Origin: Hericium rajendrae
Lineage: Eukaryota; Basidiomycota; Agaricomycetes; Russulales; Hericiaceae
Assembly (NCBI GenBank): GCA_033439255.1
Contig: CM065882.1
Coordinates: 1,240,001 to 1,304,000, forward strand
DNA: 64,000 nucleotides
Direction: 5' to 3'
The notes beneath the pieces were generated by a model. That model worked only from the letters and a program-made list of their open reading frames with translations. It was not told the origin of the DNA and did not search any database. The stretch's first letter is position 1. The number at the start of each line of letters is the position of its first letter. The position numbers and the translations under genes were made by a program. Positions 17,288 to 64,000 of the stretch are shown here, in pieces.

Positions 17288-17551
17288 ATTTAGAAAATTT
17301 TAAATATTAGAGATTTTGATATATCTATTAGTTAGAGATTAAAAACTTATATATCTGACAATAAATGTTTTTACTTAAATGTAAAAGTTTGGTCAGATAT
17401 TTGCCTGTTAAGATTACTTTCAGGTGGATCAGATCAATCAGGAGCTGTCAGTAGGGTTAGAAATTGTTAGATCAATCAGAAAGTTGTCAACCTTCCTGAT
17501 GTAGAGTTAGAAATTGTCAGGTCAATCAGAAAGTTGTCAACCTTCCTGATG
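17288..17551. mobile_element. MITE-A right piece
   Basis: Completes MITE-A, ending CCTTCCTGATG. The last roughly 60 bp are present twice (first terminus near 17500, second at 17551), a duplicated end not seen in MITE-B or MITE-C. Confidence 0.85.
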
Positions 17552-37558: not shown

Positions 37559-37990
37559 TGCGTTAGCAAAAACAAACGAAAGAAGGTAAATTTCTTACTT
37601 ACCTTGAACCCCTCTACATGCTACTTATCCCCCGCGGCTTTCGTTTTGAAGGGAGACAGAGGGGAGGGATGAAGGAAAGAGGGTGACTGGAGGAGTGGCC
37701 AGGGTGGTTGAGGAAGACAGTCGAGACGAACTTCGACGTGCGGTTCGGTGCTTCAGCCACCGAACGAGTCGAAGCTTTAGATTTCGAGCCTTCACTCAGC
37801 TAATAAAATCATATAAATTCAAATAAAAAGGGAACAACTATCTATTGTACATACAATCAAAACTAGTCAGACTTCGAGCCATTTACTATACGTTGCATCC
37901 TTGCATAGCAAAATCTACTTAGTTAAGTCTGGCGCCAGTCTCTGATGCGATGCTCGGCAAGCGTCAAATCCCAGCTCTGCCCGAGCTTCG

Positions 37991-38000
37991 TATATAAGGC
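37991..38000 (+). promoter_or_regulatory. M3 TATA box
   Basis: TATATAAGGC followed by CTCGCGCGACGCGCGTTACC and TCTTGCTCC. The M5 promoter repeats this layout. Confidence 0.55.
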
Positions 38001-38039
38001 TCGCGCGACGCGCGTTACCTCTTGCTCCTAACCTCCACT

Positions 38040-38225
38040 GTCTCCTGCCACGTCGATGCCTTCGTCGACGTCCTTTGCTCACTCGTCGTCGTTTCTTACT
38101 CACTCGTCGTTGTCTCTTACTTGCTCGTCGTTGTCTCTTACTCGCTCGTCGTTGTCTCTTACTTGCTCGTCGTTGTCTCTTACTCGTTGAGCATCATTTC
38201 TTGCTCATTGTTGCTGTCTTTAAGG
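38040..38225 (+). repeat. M3 first-exon repeat CTCGTCGTTGTCTCTTA
   Basis: About six imperfect copies of a ~21-bp unit (TTACTCGCTCGTCGTTGTCTC) between the TATA box and the first donor TTTAAGGTAATC. M5 has a similar TTTGCTCRCTCGTCGT series at 46625-46720. Below them introns with TACTAAT and CTTCTAG signals continue to about 38360. Confidence 0.65.
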
Positions 38226-40185: not shown

Positions 40186-41548
40186 ATATGCTTAAAGTGA
40201 TATTTGCACAATTGATGCTCTCATGCATTTGTATGAGTTTTTTGGACCTTCATGCTAATTGACAGGCAATTTTACCAGAAAGTAGTTGCCATATTTGGTC
40301 ACTAATTTCTGCCAGTATACAAAATATGGTTTGAAGGTGAGAATTCAATTTTAATAGTGTTTTATGCATGTAAAATAGAAAAATACTGACTAGATTATAC
40401 ATTGAAGAGATATAAGCTCTATTAAAAAAACTGGTATGATTTACAAATGATTTATGTTATTTTTTGTAAAAGTCAGAAATCAAATCCAAATATAGAAATT
40501 AAATTCTGCCTTTGGTGCTAGCAGCAATGCATACAAATTAATAAAAGGTGCACAGGCTAACAGAAAATGTATGAGGTAGTAGGAGCATACATAAGTTTGC
40601 TGTGATGCCTATGGGTTGATACATGTGTAAGCAGATTAACAAAAGTATGCATAGATCAAAAAATGTGAGCCAAGAGTGCATATATGAGTTGGTGTAGTGT
40701 GTATCATCTGAAAATTTGAAATTTCACATAGCCCAGTGTTGATCTATATGTCCTATCATAGCACTATAAAGTCTATCACTATTTATGCAGCCACAGTTCT
40801 CAACTATGTAAGGCTATGAGGTCTATCATAGCTATTATAACAGTAGTTGGACACTATATAGTGCTACATGTTTCTGAAGGATAGCTGTAGTTGTTGTACA
40901 AATTACATAAATTCAAAGACTTGCTCTGATCTATATGGTCCCTACTACGATCTCTGCTATTAGTACTGTCTCAGATCAATCAGGTACAAGAGATATAAAG
41001 CCAGAATCAATTATATTTCATACAGCTACTAGTACAATCAAGTATATTACAAGTTCAAACAGTGCACACATGCACAGTGGTGCACATCATGTACAGGTAG
41101 AGCTATGTGCAGGCATGTGTGCACTAGCAAGGCACAACAAAAGCACATATGTGCATAAGACACTAGGTTCATACACAAGGCATGACAAGCATCATGACTG
41201 TGCAGGAGGTCCAGTGGCTATGCTCACCAATTTTAAGCTGTAGTGGGCCTATATGTAAGATGCAATGGGCAGCGAGGATGTGTGAGATATTGAGAGCCAT
41301 GCATGAGGCATAGAGAGTGAGCATAAGGCATGCAGGTCCATGTGTAGGGCTGCTACTAGCCTGTACAGGAGATCAACAGGGTGTGGTGGCCATGCACAGG
41401 GTGCTGCAAGCATGTGCAGGGTGTCAAGATGCTGTGGGCCTGTACATGAAGTACAGTAAGCATCTATGGGATGGTGGCTTGTATGCAAGATGTAGTGTAG
41501 CATGGTGAGCATGCATAAGGCACTAAGCCTATGCATGGCTCGGTATGT
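40186..41548 (+). other. X1 continuation with CpG-decayed M4 remnant
   Basis: Collinear with X2 (reverse of 5563-6603) and, up to about 62150, with X3. From the CATCTGAAAATTTG end at 40706 it is an M-like remnant with almost no CpG (40706-41548). No gene seen. Confidence 0.6.
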
Positions 41549-42168
41549 TACGATTCCTTAGAATCGTTTACTCTATACCGCCTTTTCATAGTGAAAACGA
41601 CATGCAAACGATGACTATGCCCATTAGGCAGTTGGCTTATATAATCACACATCTTCAATCTAACGAGTTTGCAGGTTCAATTCCAGCTCTGGCCAGACTT
41701 TTTCTTTTACACTTTGTTTACTGTAACTTGGTCAGTTCTTGACCAATTCACACATTCTCAAATGCACCAGAATCTACTCATTTATCGCTTTCTAGCCATA
41801 TATTATGCATCTTGATCCATGCAGATCTTGCAGAATGCAAAGTATTCTTGTATTTTTCCCCCTAGTATGCTTGATCCTCAGCTAGCTCAGTCAGTTCTTG
41901 ACTGATTCACTCATTCTTAGATGTATCAGAATTTACTCATTCATTGCTTTCTAGTCATATTTTATGCATTTTGATCTGTGCAGAACTCGTAGAACACGAA
42001 GTACTTCTGTATTTTTCCTCCTAGTATGCTTGATTCTTAGTTATCTCAATCAATTCTCCACCGATTCACTCGTTCTCAAGTGGATCGAATATTACTCATT
42101 TATAGCTTTCGAACCATATTTTTTGCATTTTGATCCATGCAGAACTCATAGAATGTGAAGCACTTCAT

Positions 42169-42234
42169 CATGGTACAGCTGTACCATGGTTGTGATCACA
42201 TGAGCACTTCACCATGGTACGGCCGTACCATGGT
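42169..42234. repeat. X5 paired palindromes (GTAC type)
   Basis: CATGGTACAGCTGTACCATG (42169-42188) and a perfect 24-bp palindrome at 42211-42234 with centre GGTACGGCCGTACC. Each is followed by GTGATCAYRTGA. Same plan as the AAGACCTTGT palindromes of X1-X3 but with different arms. Confidence 0.85.
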
Positions 42235-42822
42235 GGTGATCATGTGATGATTACATAATCAAAACTCGGTGGTGAAGTGTGAGTTCTCTTGAGTTTGCAA
42301 GTTCAATTCCAGTTCATGCCAGACTTTTTTGATATTTTTTAATACTGAAAATAATATCATCAATGAGCAATTAGCATTAGTACAATGTCTACTCTTATAG
42401 TATATTATAAGTACAGAAATGCCTAGAAATCTATGATTTTGAAGACTGATTATATAATCAAAATTTCAGTTTTGAAGCACCAGCAGTAAAGTCTTGCTTT
42501 CTCATGAGCTTTACATCCTGCATACTTGTCATGTTGGCTGCAAGGCTCGACGGGTATCTCCAAGTCATCCGCTGAGTGGTTGACGGTTTGGAACCAGGAG
42601 GTACTTGACCTGGCGGCTCACCTTGGTCGTCTTGTATGTATCTCACTTGCTGAGCTGGCAGACTAATTTACTTATAGGTCTCTAAATCTGGCACCAACTA
42701 AGGCATATTAGAGCTTATCAAAACCATATTGATAGCTGCTTCCAGATGAGGCCTTCTGAGCTATGCTAGCCTATCTGCCTAGTTGAAAATCAACCAATTA
42801 TCATTATTCTAATGATCTTGAG

Positions 42823-44550
42823 GTAAGTCCATCAATTCTCTGTCAATTCTCTCATTCTAAAATGTATTGGACTCTACTGATTAATCGCTTTCCAGCCATG
42901 CTACATAGCCCCCAAACCATCCAGAACTCGAAAATCAAGACTCAAAATTGGGATTACCCCCTAGAAACCTTGATCTTGAGGTAAGTCCTTCAATTCTCCA
43001 CCGATTCTCTCGTTCTAAAATGCGTTCAACTCTACTAATTAATCGCTTTCCAGCCATGCTATATAACCCCCAAACCATCCAGAACTTAAAAATCAAGACT
43101 CGAAATTGGGATTACCCCCTAGAAACCTTGATCTTGAGGTAAGTCCTTCAATTCTCCACCGATTCTCTCGTTCTAAAATGCGTTCAACTCTACTAATTAA
43201 TCGCTTTCCAGTCATGCTACATAGCCCCCAAACCATCCAGAACTCGAAAATCAAAACTCGAAACTGAGATCTCCCCCCCAAGATCTTGACCTTGAGGTAA
43301 GTCTAGCAGTTCTCCACCGATTCACTCATTCTAAATTGGGCCTGAATGTACTGATTAATCGCTTTCCAGACATGCTACATAGACCCCATGCCATCCACAA
43401 CTTGAAAATCAAAACTCGAAACTGAGATCTCCCCCTCAAGATCTGGACCTTGAGGTAAGTCTAGCAGTTCTCCACCGATTCACTCATTCTAAATTGGGCC
43501 TGAATGTACTGATTAATCGCTTTCCAGCCATGCTACATAGACCCCAATCTGCTCAGAACTCGAAAATCAAAACTCGAAACTGAGATCTCCCCCCCAAGAT
43601 CTTGACCTTGAGGTAAGTCTAGCAGTTCTCCACTGATTCACTCATTCTAAATTGGGTCTGAATGTACTGATTAATCGCTTTCCAGACATGCTACATAGAC
43701 CCCATGCCATCCAGAACTCGAAAATCAAGACTCAAAATTGGGATTACCCCCTAGAAACCTTGATCTTGAGGTAAGTCCTTCAATTCTCCACCGATTCTCT
43801 CGTTCTAAAATGCGTTCAACTCTACTAATTAATCGCTTTCCAGCCATGCTACATAGATCCCAATCTGCTCAGAACTCGAAAATCAAAACTCAAAACTGAG
43901 ATCTCCCCCCCAAGATCTTGACCTTGAGATAAGTCCCTCAGTTCTCCACCGATTCACTCATTCTAAATTGGGCCTGAATGTACTGATTAATCGCTTTCCA
44001 GACATGCTACATAGACCCCATGCCATCCAGAACTCAAAAGTCAAAACTCGAAACTGAGATCTCCCCCCAAGATCTTGACCTTGGGATAAGTCTGGCAGTT
44101 CTCCACCGATTTAATTGTTCTAAATTGCATTGAAATTTACTGATTAATCGCTTTCCAGCCATGCTACATAGACCCCAAACCATCCAGAACTCGAAAATCA
44201 AAACTCAAAACTGAGATCTCTCCCCCAAGATCTTGACCTCGAGGTAAGTCTAGCAGTTCTCCACCGATTCACTCGTTCTAAATTGGGCCTGAATGTACTG
44301 ATTAATCACTTTCCAGCCATGCTACATAGACCCCAATCTGCCCAGAACTCGAAAATCAAAACTCGAAACTGAGATCTCCCCCCCAAGATCTTGACCTTGA
44401 GGTAAGTCTGGCAGTTCTCCACCAATTTAATTGTTCTAAAATGCACTGAAATGTACTGATTAATCACTTTCCAGCCATGCTACATAGGCCTCAGTCCATC
44501 CAGAACTCAAAAATCAAAATTTGAAATTGAGATCTTCCGTTCAAGATCTT
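42823..44550 (+). repeat. X5 tandem array: 11 units of 158 bp, each exon + intron-like
   Basis: Donor-position starts at 42823, 42981, 43139, 43297, 43455, 43613, 43771, 43929, 44086, 44244, 44402: nine of ten intervals are exactly 158. Each unit has GAG/GTAAGTC (nine of eleven keep GTAAGT), TACTRATTAATC as branch-like site and CTTTCCAG or similar acceptor, making a 73-nt intron and an 85-nt exon (e.g. 42823-42895). M5 interrupts the next unit. Too uniform in sequence and with no spacer diversity to be a CRISPR. Confidence 0.85.
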
Positions 44551-46557
44551 CATCTGAGAAATTTGAATTTGACATAGCTGCAGGTTACATTATAGGTGCT
44601 ATCATTGAGCTATCAGAGCTATGAAGTTTGCTTATCCAGCTATGTAGAGCTATGAGAGCTATCATAATCTACATAGTAGACAGTGTGACATTTATCATAG
44701 CCTCCATAGCCTGTAGTCTGATATACATAGGGCTATCATAATTAACAAGGTGTGCTATGGCTACTATGATGCCTATGATTACTACCACAAGTCAGATAAG
44801 CACCAGATATTATAAGTCAGAATTTATCATATTAAATTGTAATAAATCTACTACCATACATATGTAAGCTAGTCGAGCTACTGCGTAGGGCACAGGATGC
44901 GGAGGGCACGCAAGTCGCCATGGAGGGTGCAAGTGCAGGTGCAAAGACAGCACGGGCACACAAAAGACAGCACATGCACACAAAATGGCACGGAGGGCAC
45001 AGGGGTAGGCGTGGGCCGCACACAGCATACATGGTCCATGCACAGCAAGCCGGACCATGTGTAGCTGCGTGCGGGTGGCCATGCCCACAAATGGGGTCAG
45101 AGCTGCTATGCATGCGCGCAGGTTGCATACATGTGCGTGGGATGTTGCACACATACACAGAGCATCTGGAGGGCACAGGGTGTTGAGCGGGCATGTGGGA
45201 GCACGCGTGCATGCAGGGCATTGTAGGCAAGTGGCGTTGAGTGCGAATGCTGAGTGTCGTGTGTGCATTGTTGTGGGATGGGGTCTTGCAGTGCCACCAT
45301 GCGCTGGCATCTGTGCACATGCAGAGGCAGAGCTGGGCACGTGCAGGGGATGTCGGGCACGCACGGGTGTCAAACATGTGCGGGAGGCCTGGAGCGAGCG
45401 TGCAGGACATTCTGCATGCATGAAGAGGCACTGTATGGCACGTCACGCACATGTGGTTGTTGTGCACCTGTGCAGGTCATTGCACACACATGCGGGGCAT
45501 GTTGAGTTGAGCAGGTGCAGGAGCATACATGCAACCGGGCATGGCACACATGTCCGGGGCATTGTGAGCAGGTGCGGGGCATTGTGAGTGGGTGTGGGGG
45601 CTTGAGCGCACAGACGGGATGTTGCAAGCATGCACGGTGTTGAATGCAAGCACGAGGCCTTGCGGGGATTGAGGTGAGCATGTGGGGTCATGGCTGATAG
45701 GCATGAACGATGTCCGAGTCCCATTGCCATGGCAACGGGACTACGATGCATGCACATGCACAAACGTGGGGCATGGGCGATGATGTGGCCCATGTGCACA
45801 TGTCGTTGATGTCACGCAGATGATGTCACGTGGTACACGCATGCACACATGCTGTGGCCTTGTGTATGCTGGTGCACGTGGAAGGGGATGGTGGTCGGAG
45901 GCATGCGCAGGGGTCGCAGCCTGTTGGAGTCAGGCATGGGGTGTACGAGCTGCACGCGGGGCGTGGATGTGGCATAGACAGGCCGAGGAAGGGGCGATGA
46001 GAGTGAAAAAAAGGCAGCGGGATCATAGGATGGTAGCACAGGGATGTGGAGTCAACAGAATAAAAGATATCGACAGTGTCGCTCGAAAAATGATTGACAC
46101 TCTCTTGATTAGTACGAAAAAATGATAAGAGGCTTTTTTTTACTCACCTAAGGCCCTCTAAGTATCTGCTAAAAAAACCATCCCAGCCGTATTGAAAGCT
46201 GATAGAGAACGAAAAAAATGGAAGAAAGGAGGCTGGAGGAGAAAACACGAAGGAGGGGAAGGGAGACTGGTAAAAAGGAGTGAAGTCTCGACATGTTAAA
46301 CTCAGTGCTTCAGCCACCGAACGAGCGAAGCTTCGTTGCTCGAGCCTCAGCAAATCAAATAAACTTGTATAAATTCAACAAAAAAAGGGACAGTGATAGA
46401 TTATACATTTAATTAGAATGTATGAGAACACTGTGTATCTACTGGATTGTGAATCTGTGAGCAGCAGCATCAACGTAGTAAAGTCTGGCGTCCAGTCTCT
46501 GCCACGACACTCGGCAAGCGCCTGGCAACCACAAATTCCGGTTCTATCTGGGATTCT

Positions 46558-46568
46558 TATATAAGGCT
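46558..46568 (+). promoter_or_regulatory. M5 TATA box
   Basis: TTATATAAGGC, then TTTACCTCTTGCTC; matches M3. Confidence 0.5.
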
Positions 46569-46739
46569 GGCGTGATGTGCTTTACCTCTTGCTCTTTAAC
46601 CCCCACCATTCCTTGCCACATTGACACATTTGTCGTTGTTGTTTGCTCACTTGTCATCGTTTGCTCGCTCATCGTCATCATTTGCTCACTCGTCGTTGTC
46701 GTTTGCTCATTTTATTATTATTGTTCTCTTTGTTGTTAA

Positions 46740-46975
46740 AGGTATGCTGTTATTCTTAATTATCTTATAACTTATACTAATGTCTTCATACTTATTACAC
46801 TACCATGTAGTCCTACTAGGTAAGCTTGATTATTTTTTATACTGATGTCTTCAAATTGTCTTGTAGATTTTTGCTTTTTTGCTAATCTGGTAAGTCTTCA
46901 TAGATTATCTTTGTTATCTTCTAATACTCATGTCTTTTCTTATTTGTATCTTTTGCTTTTTGTAGTCATTGTAAG
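46740..46975 (+). other. M5 intron-like ladder
   Basis: Donors GTATGC, GTAAGC, GTAAGT, GTAAGT and acceptors CATGTAG, CTTGTAG, TTTGTAG alternate. The exon ATTTTTGCTTTTTTGC... corresponds to the M1 exon ATTTTCGCTTTT. Confidence 0.45.
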
Positions 46976-47534
46976 TTTGTTACCTTTTGTAGTTTTGTAG
47001 TAGTCTCTGTAGCTATAGTAATGTTTTGTAATGAAATTGTTTGAGTAATATAAGTTATCCAATTTTTGATGTTTGTGACTGTAAGACATCAGACTATTGA
47101 ATCTATAATATAATTATTTTATATGCTATTTTAGCATATTTGATAGAAGTAATATAGAGTAGATAGAAATCTTACTAGCTAGATATAATATAATGATGGA
47201 GATATATTATATAGTTAATATAGCTTCTATAGTTATCTTATACTAGAATAACTATAACAGCTATGATAGCTTATGCCCTATGCTATGACAGCTATGACAA
47301 GCTATGATAGCTTTGCATAGTTTACTTGACTGTTATGTATAAAAGAGGACAGCTATGGACCTAGGAAAGCTATGTAGCTAATATAGTGTTATATACCAGT
47401 GACATATTTCTCAGATGTTGACCTTGAGGTAGCTATAGATTTTATAGAGATTTATAATCAATCTGACAAGTGAGACTTTACATCATTTATGCACTGTTTC
47501 TAAATATAACTAACAATGAAAAAGGAATCGTATT

Positions 47535-47552
47535 GCTGTGCGAAGCATCGGC
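47535..47552 (+). other. X1/X5 right-end hairpin
   Basis: GCTGTGC-GAA-GCA-T-CGGC, 14 nt from the end; GGAATCGTA (47524-47532) precedes it as the inverse of the left terminus. Confidence 0.7.
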
Positions 47553-47566
47553 CCTCTTCCACCAAG

Positions 47567-49240
47567 TCCACTCTCTTGTAGGCTGTAAATATCATGGAAT
47601 TTGATTGATTTAGATTGGGACTCATATTCTGCGCCGATTGGTGAAATAACGGAGTGATTTGGTTAGAAAATGGCTGCTCTAGAATTACTTTCATATGGGA
47701 CTGTTGACTTAGCGCTGGCATCGTGCGGCGCGTTGGGTGCTTAATCGAATCGAAAGGCAGAGGAAGTCGCGGTGGTACTTTGGGATGCGTAGAGTCTGAA
47801 TTCCTGCAGGGAAATATATTGTTGAACATTGTAGCTGTAGGTTCTGAGCTTTATTCAAAGTGCTAAGGCTTGCGTGTGTCGAAACACGATATAACTCAAC
47901 TGTACCTCGAGAGTCTTAAGGGAGTCCGTCATCGGACAGGGAGATCACGCGAAATATTGCACAAACCGGGCATTAGATTCCAGTAAACTACGATACAAAC
48001 ATGTACGCGGGTACTGAACGACTGCCGAGGGTGCAAATTTTATTCCACCTCCACAAACTCCTACTAACTTCCACGAGAAATTGAAGTACTTGAGGCCTGA
48101 ACGAGGCGCGGCGAACAAACGAATGGCGAGGCGGACGAGGTGGCATCAGGACATGGTAAGGTGGTGTAAGTCGACCGGCTGCGAAGTGCGCAGCGACGGC
48201 GTAAATGGAGGAATGGAGGCGAGGCAGGGATCGGGCAACGAGCCATACGGCCCTCCCGTCACCCCAAACTCTCTCTCCGACGTGTCTCCGGGACACGCCA
48301 AGGGACCACTACTTGAAATTGCAATGGATCAACTGCCGGGAGTACTCACGCAGGCCGAGATTGGCATGAGTACGGATAGGATGGGATAGACTGGGGAATC
48401 ACGACAAGGTTAAGGAATTTGATGAAATGAGTGTGCCGTTGGGCAGCGCAGCTTGACGGCATCAAGACACGGTAAGAGGCGATGTAGCCTTGGGTTTTTG
48501 AGGGATTTCGTTCTTTTTCTGGGCCCAGGTAAGTACGTCGTGTCGAGTTCAAGCGAGGTGCATGACTTACTTGGGTTTTTCGAGATTGTTGACGAGATGG
48601 ATGGACAACAAGGCAAAGCGAGTCGGAATCTATGTAAAAGGTTGCACGGCTTATGGCGATCGTGCCGGCATGCGTTCGTTATACACAAGAATCTAGAAAA
48701 TTTAAAACGAGGCGAGGTGGAACAGGGAATGGGCGAGGTCGCACGAGTTAGCCAAAGCTGACTCGAGGCAAAACCGAGGCCACTTACCTAGACCCTCAAC
48801 CTATCTTACATTTCATCCTGAACGAACAAACGCGAAAGTCGAGCGAGTTGTGAGGTGAGTTCAAGATGAGACGAAGAGGGAATGGATGAGCTCTAAGGCA
48901 GAAGGCAGAAAGGCGCGAGGCAAAATGTACCTCCGGCAAAGTCCGGCTGACCCTACGCTGGGGTCACCAGTGACTTCGAGGAGGGGATCGTGGATTTTCG
49001 TTGATTGGAGACCGAGTAATACAATTGCTGACTAGAAAATTCTTGAGGGAGTCTTAGATAGCCCTAGAATACAGAATATAGAGTCGAGATGGGAAGGAAA
49101 GGGAAGTGAGGGGAAATTAAACTTGATTTTCTTGATTTTCGCGAGATCGAGAGGACTTGGGCGAAATATAAGGCTGCGCGTGGGGAACTTGGATATGAGC
49201 CATCCTAGGGCTCGAGATTGAATAAGTAGAACATACATTA
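47567..49240 (-). other. Gypsy-2 interior between pol and ORF1 linker
   Basis: The minus-strand frame at the left edge (about 47567-47829) is the start of pol next to the X1 insertion. The rest (47830-49240) has no convincing frame; it may be the spacer between ORF1 and pol that Agaricomycete Gypsy elements carry, or decayed coding DNA. Confidence 0.5.
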
Positions 49241-62989: not shown

Positions 62990-64000
62990 TAGATTAGTAG
63001 ACTAAGGTCACAGATTACATCCAGTGAAACTATGGTCAAAATAGTACAATATAATGCATAAGAGCTTATTGAAAAGCAATTACATAGGACTTTCGACAAA
63101 AACTAATTGAGATAAATCAAGATCTCTAGTTTAAGATCAAAAGCAGAAATGGTCCTACACAAATGAGTTTTGCAGATATCAGACTGTACAAGATCTTATT
63201 GAAATACGGTAAATCAGACCTTTTCAATGCATCTAAGATTAGACAAAACACTTAGAATTGACTAAGATATTATTCAATCTTCTTTCAAAATAAAACTACA
63301 TCACATTCCATGAGTTTTGCACATAACATAGCATATAAAAGCTTGTTGGAAAGCCATTGAAAATATCTTTTGAAAACATCTAAGAACCTTGAAATCAGAT
63401 GTGAATTGAATGAGATACTCTTCTTAGAAGATCAAAAGCAAAAATGGATTGCATCCTATGAATTTTGAACATGACATAGTCTATGAAGGCTTGTTGGAAA
63501 GCTATTTTTCACACCTTTCTGATGCATCTAAGATCGAGAAAAAGCATCCAAAATTGACTAAGATATCATTTAATCTTCCTTCAAAACAAAAATGCATTGC
63601 ATTCCATGAGTTCGGCACATAACACAGTGTATAAAGGCTTGCTGGAAAGCGGCTGACAAGACCTTTCCGACGCATCTAAGAACGTCGAAATCGGATACAA
63701 ATTGAGCAAGGTACCCCTCTATCTTCTTCTCAGAAGATCGAAAACAAAAATGAATTGCATCTTATGAATTTTTCACATGACACAGTCTATGAGGTATTGT
63801 TGGAAAGCGATTATTCATCCCTTTCCAATGCATCCAAGATCGAGAAAAAGCGCCCAGAATTGACTGAGATATCATTCAATCTTCTTCCAAAACAAAAATG
63901 CACCACGTTCCACGAGTTTTGCACATAACATAGCGTATAAAGGCTCGTTGGAAAGCGGTTGAAAAGACCTTTCGAACGCATCTAAGAACGTCGAAATCGG
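62990..64000 (+). repeat. Tandem units of about 155 bp at right edge
   Basis: GGAAAGC words recur near 63343, 63498, 63640, 63797 and 63951, each followed by GCATCTAAGA(A/T)C. Complementary in sense to the X tandem units (GCTTTCC... TGCAT...), so probably the same monomer family. Continues off the window. Confidence 0.65.

Follow-up and report, generated by a model that had tools for sequence, protein, structure and literature searches.

A probable Helitron2-type transposon of Hericium rajendrae carries a 158-bp tandem repeat with intron-like signals

A tandem array of eleven 158-bp units bearing intron-like signals (designated here as X5) was located within a 6020-bp element in a 64,000-nucleotide stretch of Hericium rajendrae contig CM065882.1 (referred to here as the window). 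The array most probably represents the central satellite-like repeat of a non-autonomous Helitron2-type transposon with a HINE-like build. The element exhibits a defined terminal anatomy, was found to have inserted precisely and without target duplication at two sites, varies in unit number between copies and has coding relatives that carry its 3′ terminus. Its movement would depend on RepHel proteins supplied by Helitrons elsewhere in the genome. The following features were assigned to the element:

41548–47567, plus strand: whole putative non-autonomous Helitron2/HINE-like element, 6020 bp (copy ends, differing flanks and empty sites)
41548–41567, plus strand: 5′ terminal palindrome, a hairpin with a 7-bp stem, which holds TACGATTCCTT
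41731–42147, plus strand: X array of 159-bp units (~2.6 copies), related to the X5 unit but lacking GTAAGT (TRF, nhmmer)
42166–42235: two palindromic copies of ~25 bp, which also pair with each other
42508–42677, plus strand: exon-like open segment of 42 codons (42508–42633), followed by a 44-nt intron-like stretch (42634–42677)
42813–44550, plus strand: X5 array of eleven 158-bp units, in which an intron-like part of 73 nt and an exon-like part of 85 nt alternate (TRF, motif scan)
44900–46000: stretch rich in GC and in TpG/CpA, which varies more between copies than any other part outside the array
46301–46866, plus strand: 3′ block containing TATATAAGG, seen by eye at 46558, and an intron-like stretch of 47 nt (46820–46866)
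47522–47532, plus strand: AAGGAATCGTA, which forms the 3′ half of the asymmetric terminal inverted repeat and ends 35 bp short of the element's 3′ end
47545–47567, plus strand: 3′ terminus, identical in two RepHel-coding Helitron copies

The X5 array was detected by TRF as a tandem repeat at 42813–44550 (period 158, 11.0 copies, 86% matches), and the original prediction of an eleven-unit tandem array starting at 42823 was borne out by both TRF and a motif scan. The latter placed the donor positions at 42823, 42981, 43139, 43297, 43455, 43613, 43771, 43929, 44086, 44244 and 44402, confirming the predicted spacing of 158 bp in nine of the ten intervals, with 157 bp in the remaining one. The predicted donors (GTAAGT in nine units and ATAAGT in two) were likewise recovered, the latter in units 8 and 9, and the predicted TACTRAT and TTTCCAG motifs were present in all eleven units. 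Sizes of 73 nt for the intron and 85 nt for the exon also held, with the exon-like part measuring 84 nt from donor to donor in a single case; the last unit is not followed by a donor. A full set of donor, branch and acceptor at intron spacing was observed in nine of the eleven units.

When the consensus unit was dinucleotide-shuffled 5000 times, the strict motif (GTAAGT..CTRAY..YAG at intron spacing, on either strand) appeared in 0.4% of the shuffles and a looser version in 10%. The intron motif of X5 is therefore not trivial, yet it arose once and was then copied, and the eleven units represent a single observation copied eleven times, without independence. The intron look is real as a pattern and, as the motif is rare by chance in one unit, some units of a plus-strand transcript, if any, could be spliced as cryptic introns.

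To delimit the element carrying the array, a genome search with the X5 array was performed, which yielded at least 66 matches in the 46.8-Mb genome (40 of 200 candidates being scored), and the 12 kb around the array were compared with 20 genome stretches, two of which represent the window's own place. Similarity was shown to start at 41548 (± a few bases) in stretches L013 to L027 and to stop at 47567 in ten of the stretches L013 to L028; it stopped earlier in the others, where some of the stops correspond to the end of the sequence read or to a broken copy. Outside these boundaries, the flanks of the lined-up copies (16 5′ ends and 11 3′ ends, window included) were unrelated, except for L011 and L012, which have the flanks of the window copy. 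The first 29 bases of the element matched 319 places in the genome at no more than two mismatches and the 3′ end motif matched 75, compared with none for either reversed control. Further exact 5′ ends were observed in the window at 17288 (minus strand), 26646, 56258 and 59595 (all plus strand), bringing the number of such elements or fragments in the window to five or more.

None of the ten copies with both ends, window included, exhibited a direct repeat of more than 3 bp at the element ends. Two clean empty sites without target duplication were identified: that of L019 reads GAAG-TT-GCC, the insertion splitting the TT, and is supported by two window paralogues, which look Ty3/gypsy-like by eye, while that of L018 splits a T run, its paralogues at four places differing in T number or small gaps. 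A third empty-site match, for L022, was weak (76% identity), with a junction that is not cleanly aligned. In the 3′ flanks of the 11 lined-up copies, the final T is followed by any of the four bases, and the outermost T at each end of the element is possibly host sequence. Among the ten copies with both ends, the number of X5 units ranged from four to eleven, and element length increased by 153 bp per unit (10 copies, r=0.95).

The 5′ end of the element, TTACGATTCCTTAGAATCGT, folds as a hairpin (hairpin motif TTACGATTCC) and includes the 11-bp TACGATTCCTT at element positions 2–12, the inverted complement of which is located 35 bp from the 3′ end. The last 70 bases gave a weak fold only (−8.4 kcal mol–1, RNA parameters, without shuffle control). 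An asymmetric terminal inverted repeat with a hairpin, together with insertion without target duplication, represents a Helitron2/HINE-like anatomy, while its ends (5′ TTACG... and 3′ ...CCAAGT) are not those of a canonical Helitron (Helitron1; 5′ TC, 3′ CTRR).

Helitron2 and Helentrons are described as having asymmetric inverted repeats and as inserting into TT or T-rich targets without duplicating them (PMC5148889, PMC4067079). Among HINEs, i.e. non-autonomous Helentrons such as oyster Cg_HINE, Drosophila DINE-1 and those of a mite, subterminal inverted repeats are similarly placed: those of the mite lie 2–4 nt from the 5′ end and 38–60 bp from the 3′ end (PMC4067079), compared with 1 nt and 35 bp, respectively, in the present element. 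HINEs are also alike in the lack of target duplication and the presence of central satellite-like repeats (PMC4067079, PMC7492417), which in oyster average 140–180 bp (PMC7492417), and their TT or T-rich target may be compared with the TT and the T run at the two clean empty sites. Unlike HINEs, the present element has a fungal host, two successive arrays (X and X5), a length of 6 kb and a monomer bearing intron-like signals. FoHeli, a Helitron2-type element of Fusarium oxysporum, resembles it in its 5′ hairpin, in an asymmetric inverted repeat situated 20–40 bp inside the 3′ end and in insertion sites that were confirmed via pre-insertion sequences (PMC5148889); the terminal letters differ, and central satellite-like arrays are not mentioned for FoHeli in the available text of that report (PMC5148889). 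HELPO of Pleurotus ostreatus is likewise a fungal RepHel element, with PF14214 and PF05970, yet it has T[C/G] and CTRR ends (CTTG in HELPO2) and an A/T target (PMC4289320), unlike the TTACG/CCAAGT ends and the T/T target, at one readable site, of the element described here.

Candidate sources of RepHel proteins were identified in the same genome, in which the Rep domain PF14214 yielded 67 matches. Two coding copies, at C5:1056201 and C12:2084523 (L037 and L038, respectively), are 99.5% alike over 11.2 kb, and their ORFs encode, between the two copies, DUF6570, PF14214 and a PIF1 helicase. Compared with the element, their last 23 bp are letter-identical and their last 91 bp are 85% identical. 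The 5′ end of the element was not found within 14.9 kb upstream of the 3′ end of the coding copy; the 5′ end of the partner would lie beyond this distance, and we therefore infer the partnership from the 3′ end. No endonuclease family was present among the Pfam matches (E up to 0.001) of five L037/L038 ORFs, a scan in which the stretch of the two terminal L037 ORFs (312 and 886 aa) was represented by the corresponding L038 ORF only. In this respect the coding relatives differ from Helentrons, and the element does not correspond to a Helentron in the strict sense. On C1, a 5′ end (4244867), a Rep match (4241153–4241779) and a 3′ end (4224930), all on the minus strand, are positioned in a row and, by coordinates only, may represent one element of ~20 kb.

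The GTRNGY..CTNAY..YAG pattern was observed 18 times on the coding strand and three times on the other strand of the coding Helitron over 14.9 kb, with the 18 candidate introns measuring 43–99 nt (43–62 nt in 11 cases). In the element, the same pattern occurred 12 times on the plus strand, nine of these representing the X5 array and one being located in the X array, and was absent from the minus strand.

The X5 units were compared with those of X arrays, for which units scoring below 90 bits (94 of 237 matches) were classed as X-type or partial. The original prediction that the older X arrays have CTAACT at the donor position was correct in part: CTAACT is the commonest form in the three other X arrays of the window, but the X array within the 41548–47567 element has GTAACT, CTAGCT and TTATCT. 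In all four X arrays of the window, the first unit reads GTAACT at this position. X units overall mostly exhibit GTAACT, CTAACT, CTAGCT or TTATCT, plus a few others, and never GTAAGT; some keep GT, and some, but not all, retain the acceptor AG (TTTCTAG). Of the five exact 5′ ends listed for the window, four (17288 on the minus strand; 26646, 41548 and 59595 on the plus strand) have an X array that starts 178–196 bp further in, while the fifth (56258, plus strand) is without one. The X5 monomer may have drifted from an X-type monomer, with the conversion of GTAACT into GTAAGT requiring one change, and the finished intron signal would then have been multiplied passively along with the monomer. 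Growth and shrinkage of the array could proceed via slippage, unequal exchange or rolling-circle copying.

Whether the intron signals are subject to selection was assessed through the check put forward with the original prediction, i.e. a comparison of donor conservation with the rest of the unit, the outcome of which went against conservation of the donor. The 19 stretches supplied 143 units, of which 119 have G and 24 have A at donor +1, and on a tree of units this G required 10 parsimony changes, compared with an average of 6.0 across G columns, 38% of which exhibited as many changes. The tree comprised 121 of the 143 units (99 distinct), L011 and L012 being omitted as near-identical to the window copy and the six units of L028 being derived from two arrays (about four plus two). 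Genome-wide, 158 strict units with GTAAGT and 27 with ATAAGT were counted, reversed controls yielding none. The eight splice-essential columns displayed 17 changes against 26.9 expected (base-matched, P=0.15, not significant), or seven against 20.9 when the donor G was left aside (base-matched, P=0.037). Donor T+2 and G+5, branch A and acceptor AG are nearly invariant in X5 units, and GTAAGT donors form the majority in each of the 19 stretches; variation is concentrated at G/C columns, however, and the invariant A/T bases therefore say little.

The other intron-like stretches were analysed in a similar manner. For 42508–42677, 16 of 19 aligned stretches were used (L011, L012 and one of other length being dropped, and partial matches in L016, L017 and L018 left out), among which GTATGT at 42634–42677 is kept in all 16 copies and AG in 14, with a variation of 0.013 compared with 0.030 and 0.043 in the immediate flanks. 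Among copies L013–L028, with HSPs of <84% identity and overlapping HSPs dropped, 29% and 44% of equal windows in the respective segments were as quiet as, or quieter than, 42634–42677 and 46820–46866, and neither stretch formed a conservation peak within its segment. A genome search for joined exons at no more than three mismatches returned 23 places, in 21 of which the exon is preceded by ..CAG, as in an acceptor; the other two, both with three mismatches, read differently, compared with two in the reversed control; no convincing exon–exon joined copy was thus obtained in this search. Taken together, the X5 intron signals are without a clear sign of selection. The original reading of each unit as an intron-bearing one stands insofar as the signals are well formed and like the candidate introns of the coding Helitron, but donor +1 is not conserved and the array forms the central repeat of a transposon.

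A working intron array, in which a plus-strand transcript would be spliced at each unit and would load many spliceosomes, is accordingly considered unlikely. Complete and well-spaced signals in nine of the eleven units, their resemblance to the coding Helitron's candidate introns, the confinement of the element's intron-like matches to one strand, the quieter essential columns without the donor G (P=0.037) and the presence of Piwi-domain matches at four gene places (10 matches, nine above the cut-off) would favour it, while the loss of donor +1 G (24 of the 143 units; 27 of the 185 strict units counted across the genome), the lack of conservation peaks in the other intron-like stretches examined and the failure to find a convincing joined exon copy in the genome argue against it. 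Such an array could feed small-RNA silencing of the element or protect the transcript; in Cryptococcus, poorly spliced transposon RNA gives rise to small RNAs (SCANR, PMC5851062), which would be the nearest mechanism if the X5 introns worked, the counterpart here being Piwi-domain genes only. A further version, judged to be very unlikely, is that a satellite monomer evolved into a working mini-intron, with the spliceosome load deciding between small-RNA silencing and tolerance of the element; if true, the transcripts of each copy would carry several (here up to eleven) successive introns with no coding role. Capture by a Helitron of a host exon–intron fragment, followed by tandem amplification, appears highly unlikely. 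Helitrons do capture genes (PMC4289320), and the 42 open codons at 42508–42633 are located just upstream of the array, are followed by the 44-nt intron-like stretch and exhibit an excess of variation at third codon positions (0.045, compared with 0.028 and 0.016, in 16 copies). Conversely, X relatives of the 158-bp unit occur in other elements without the full signal, the 52-aa frame at 42508–42663 matched no Pfam family at E up to 1 and no solved structure convincingly (PDB, E of 0.31 and 0.63 only), and no host gene was noticed among the 73 genome matches of the 42508–42677 block, which were not examined individually and many of which are situated just upstream of X5-type arrays.

A role of the repeats as a binding or chromatin-organising sequence is tentatively regarded as possible and is compatible with the transposon explanation. 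The length of 158 bp is near that of one nucleosome repeat. Given a unit of ~158 bp and X arrays ~180 bp inside the 5′ ends, the repeats may aid replication, transposase loading or heterochromatin formation. The placement of X arrays close to 5′ ends (four of five exact ones in the window) and the clustering of copies on several contigs are in line with such a role, although clustering may merely mirror where insertions survive, unit number varies freely and a conservation peak is absent.

Assignment of the array to a Helitron2-type, HINE-like element would extend a build that, with satellite central repeats, has been described from animals (PMC7492417, PMC4067079). Within the open-licence literature, surveyed mostly by title, neither a fungal HINE-like element with satellite central repeats nor a satellite with an intron monomer was named, which leaves their absence unproven. 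The case shows how complete splice signals can arise within a tandem repeat and be multiplied, which makes it a natural setting for asking whether non-coding transposon RNA can be spliced on the basis of its sequence alone.

Regarding genomic distribution, the copies at C5:1219096 (L012) and C5:1461691 (L011) are 99.8% identical to the window copy and share its flanks, which means that the window contig holds three copies of a segment measuring 9.5 kb or more. Places of the 42-aa block were confined to one region per contig on C2, C4, C5, C6 and C9 (e.g. 15 places within 0.33 Mb of the 2.68 Mb of C9), while they extend over 1.0 Mb on C12 and the listed 5′ ends on C1 form two groups. Clustering in one region is what pericentromeric heterochromatin might give. 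Although copies do cluster, a centromeric or classical satellite was rejected, given that the X5 arrays read are bounded by fixed transposon ends and none of them exceeds eleven units.

Several minor features were noted in the remainder of the element. The palindromes at 42166–42235 are built on CATGGTAC/GTACCATG, with 42210–42235 representing a perfect palindrome, and a longer hairpin by mutual pairing is possible. TpG/CpA observed/expected ratios of 2.0–2.3 were obtained in two 500-bp windows of the 44900–46000 stretch, which looks as though it were decaying by deamination, while 46302–46708 resembles 37745–38143 (69% identity). By eye, GGTTCAATTCC, which resembles a pol III B box, was seen ahead of a T run at 41674 (stretch 41665–41705), and a one-change variant of GGTTCAATTCC with a T run at 42300 (stretch 42285–42330). 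A tRNA-derived promoter was rejected for these stretches, as ARAGORN (bacterial settings) detected no tRNA in the window and Rfam yielded no match of any kind at the gathering score. Relaxed Rfam thresholds returned two microRNA families (E of 0.043 and 0.99) on the 42166–42235 palindromes and a viral intron RNA family (E of 0.91) in the GC-rich stretch; these matches are weak, and all three were taken as chance. Finally, a further tandem array (148/306 bp) occupies 63214–64000 of the window; one of its segments, on the minus strand, is similar to the 3′ portion of the X5 intron-like region.
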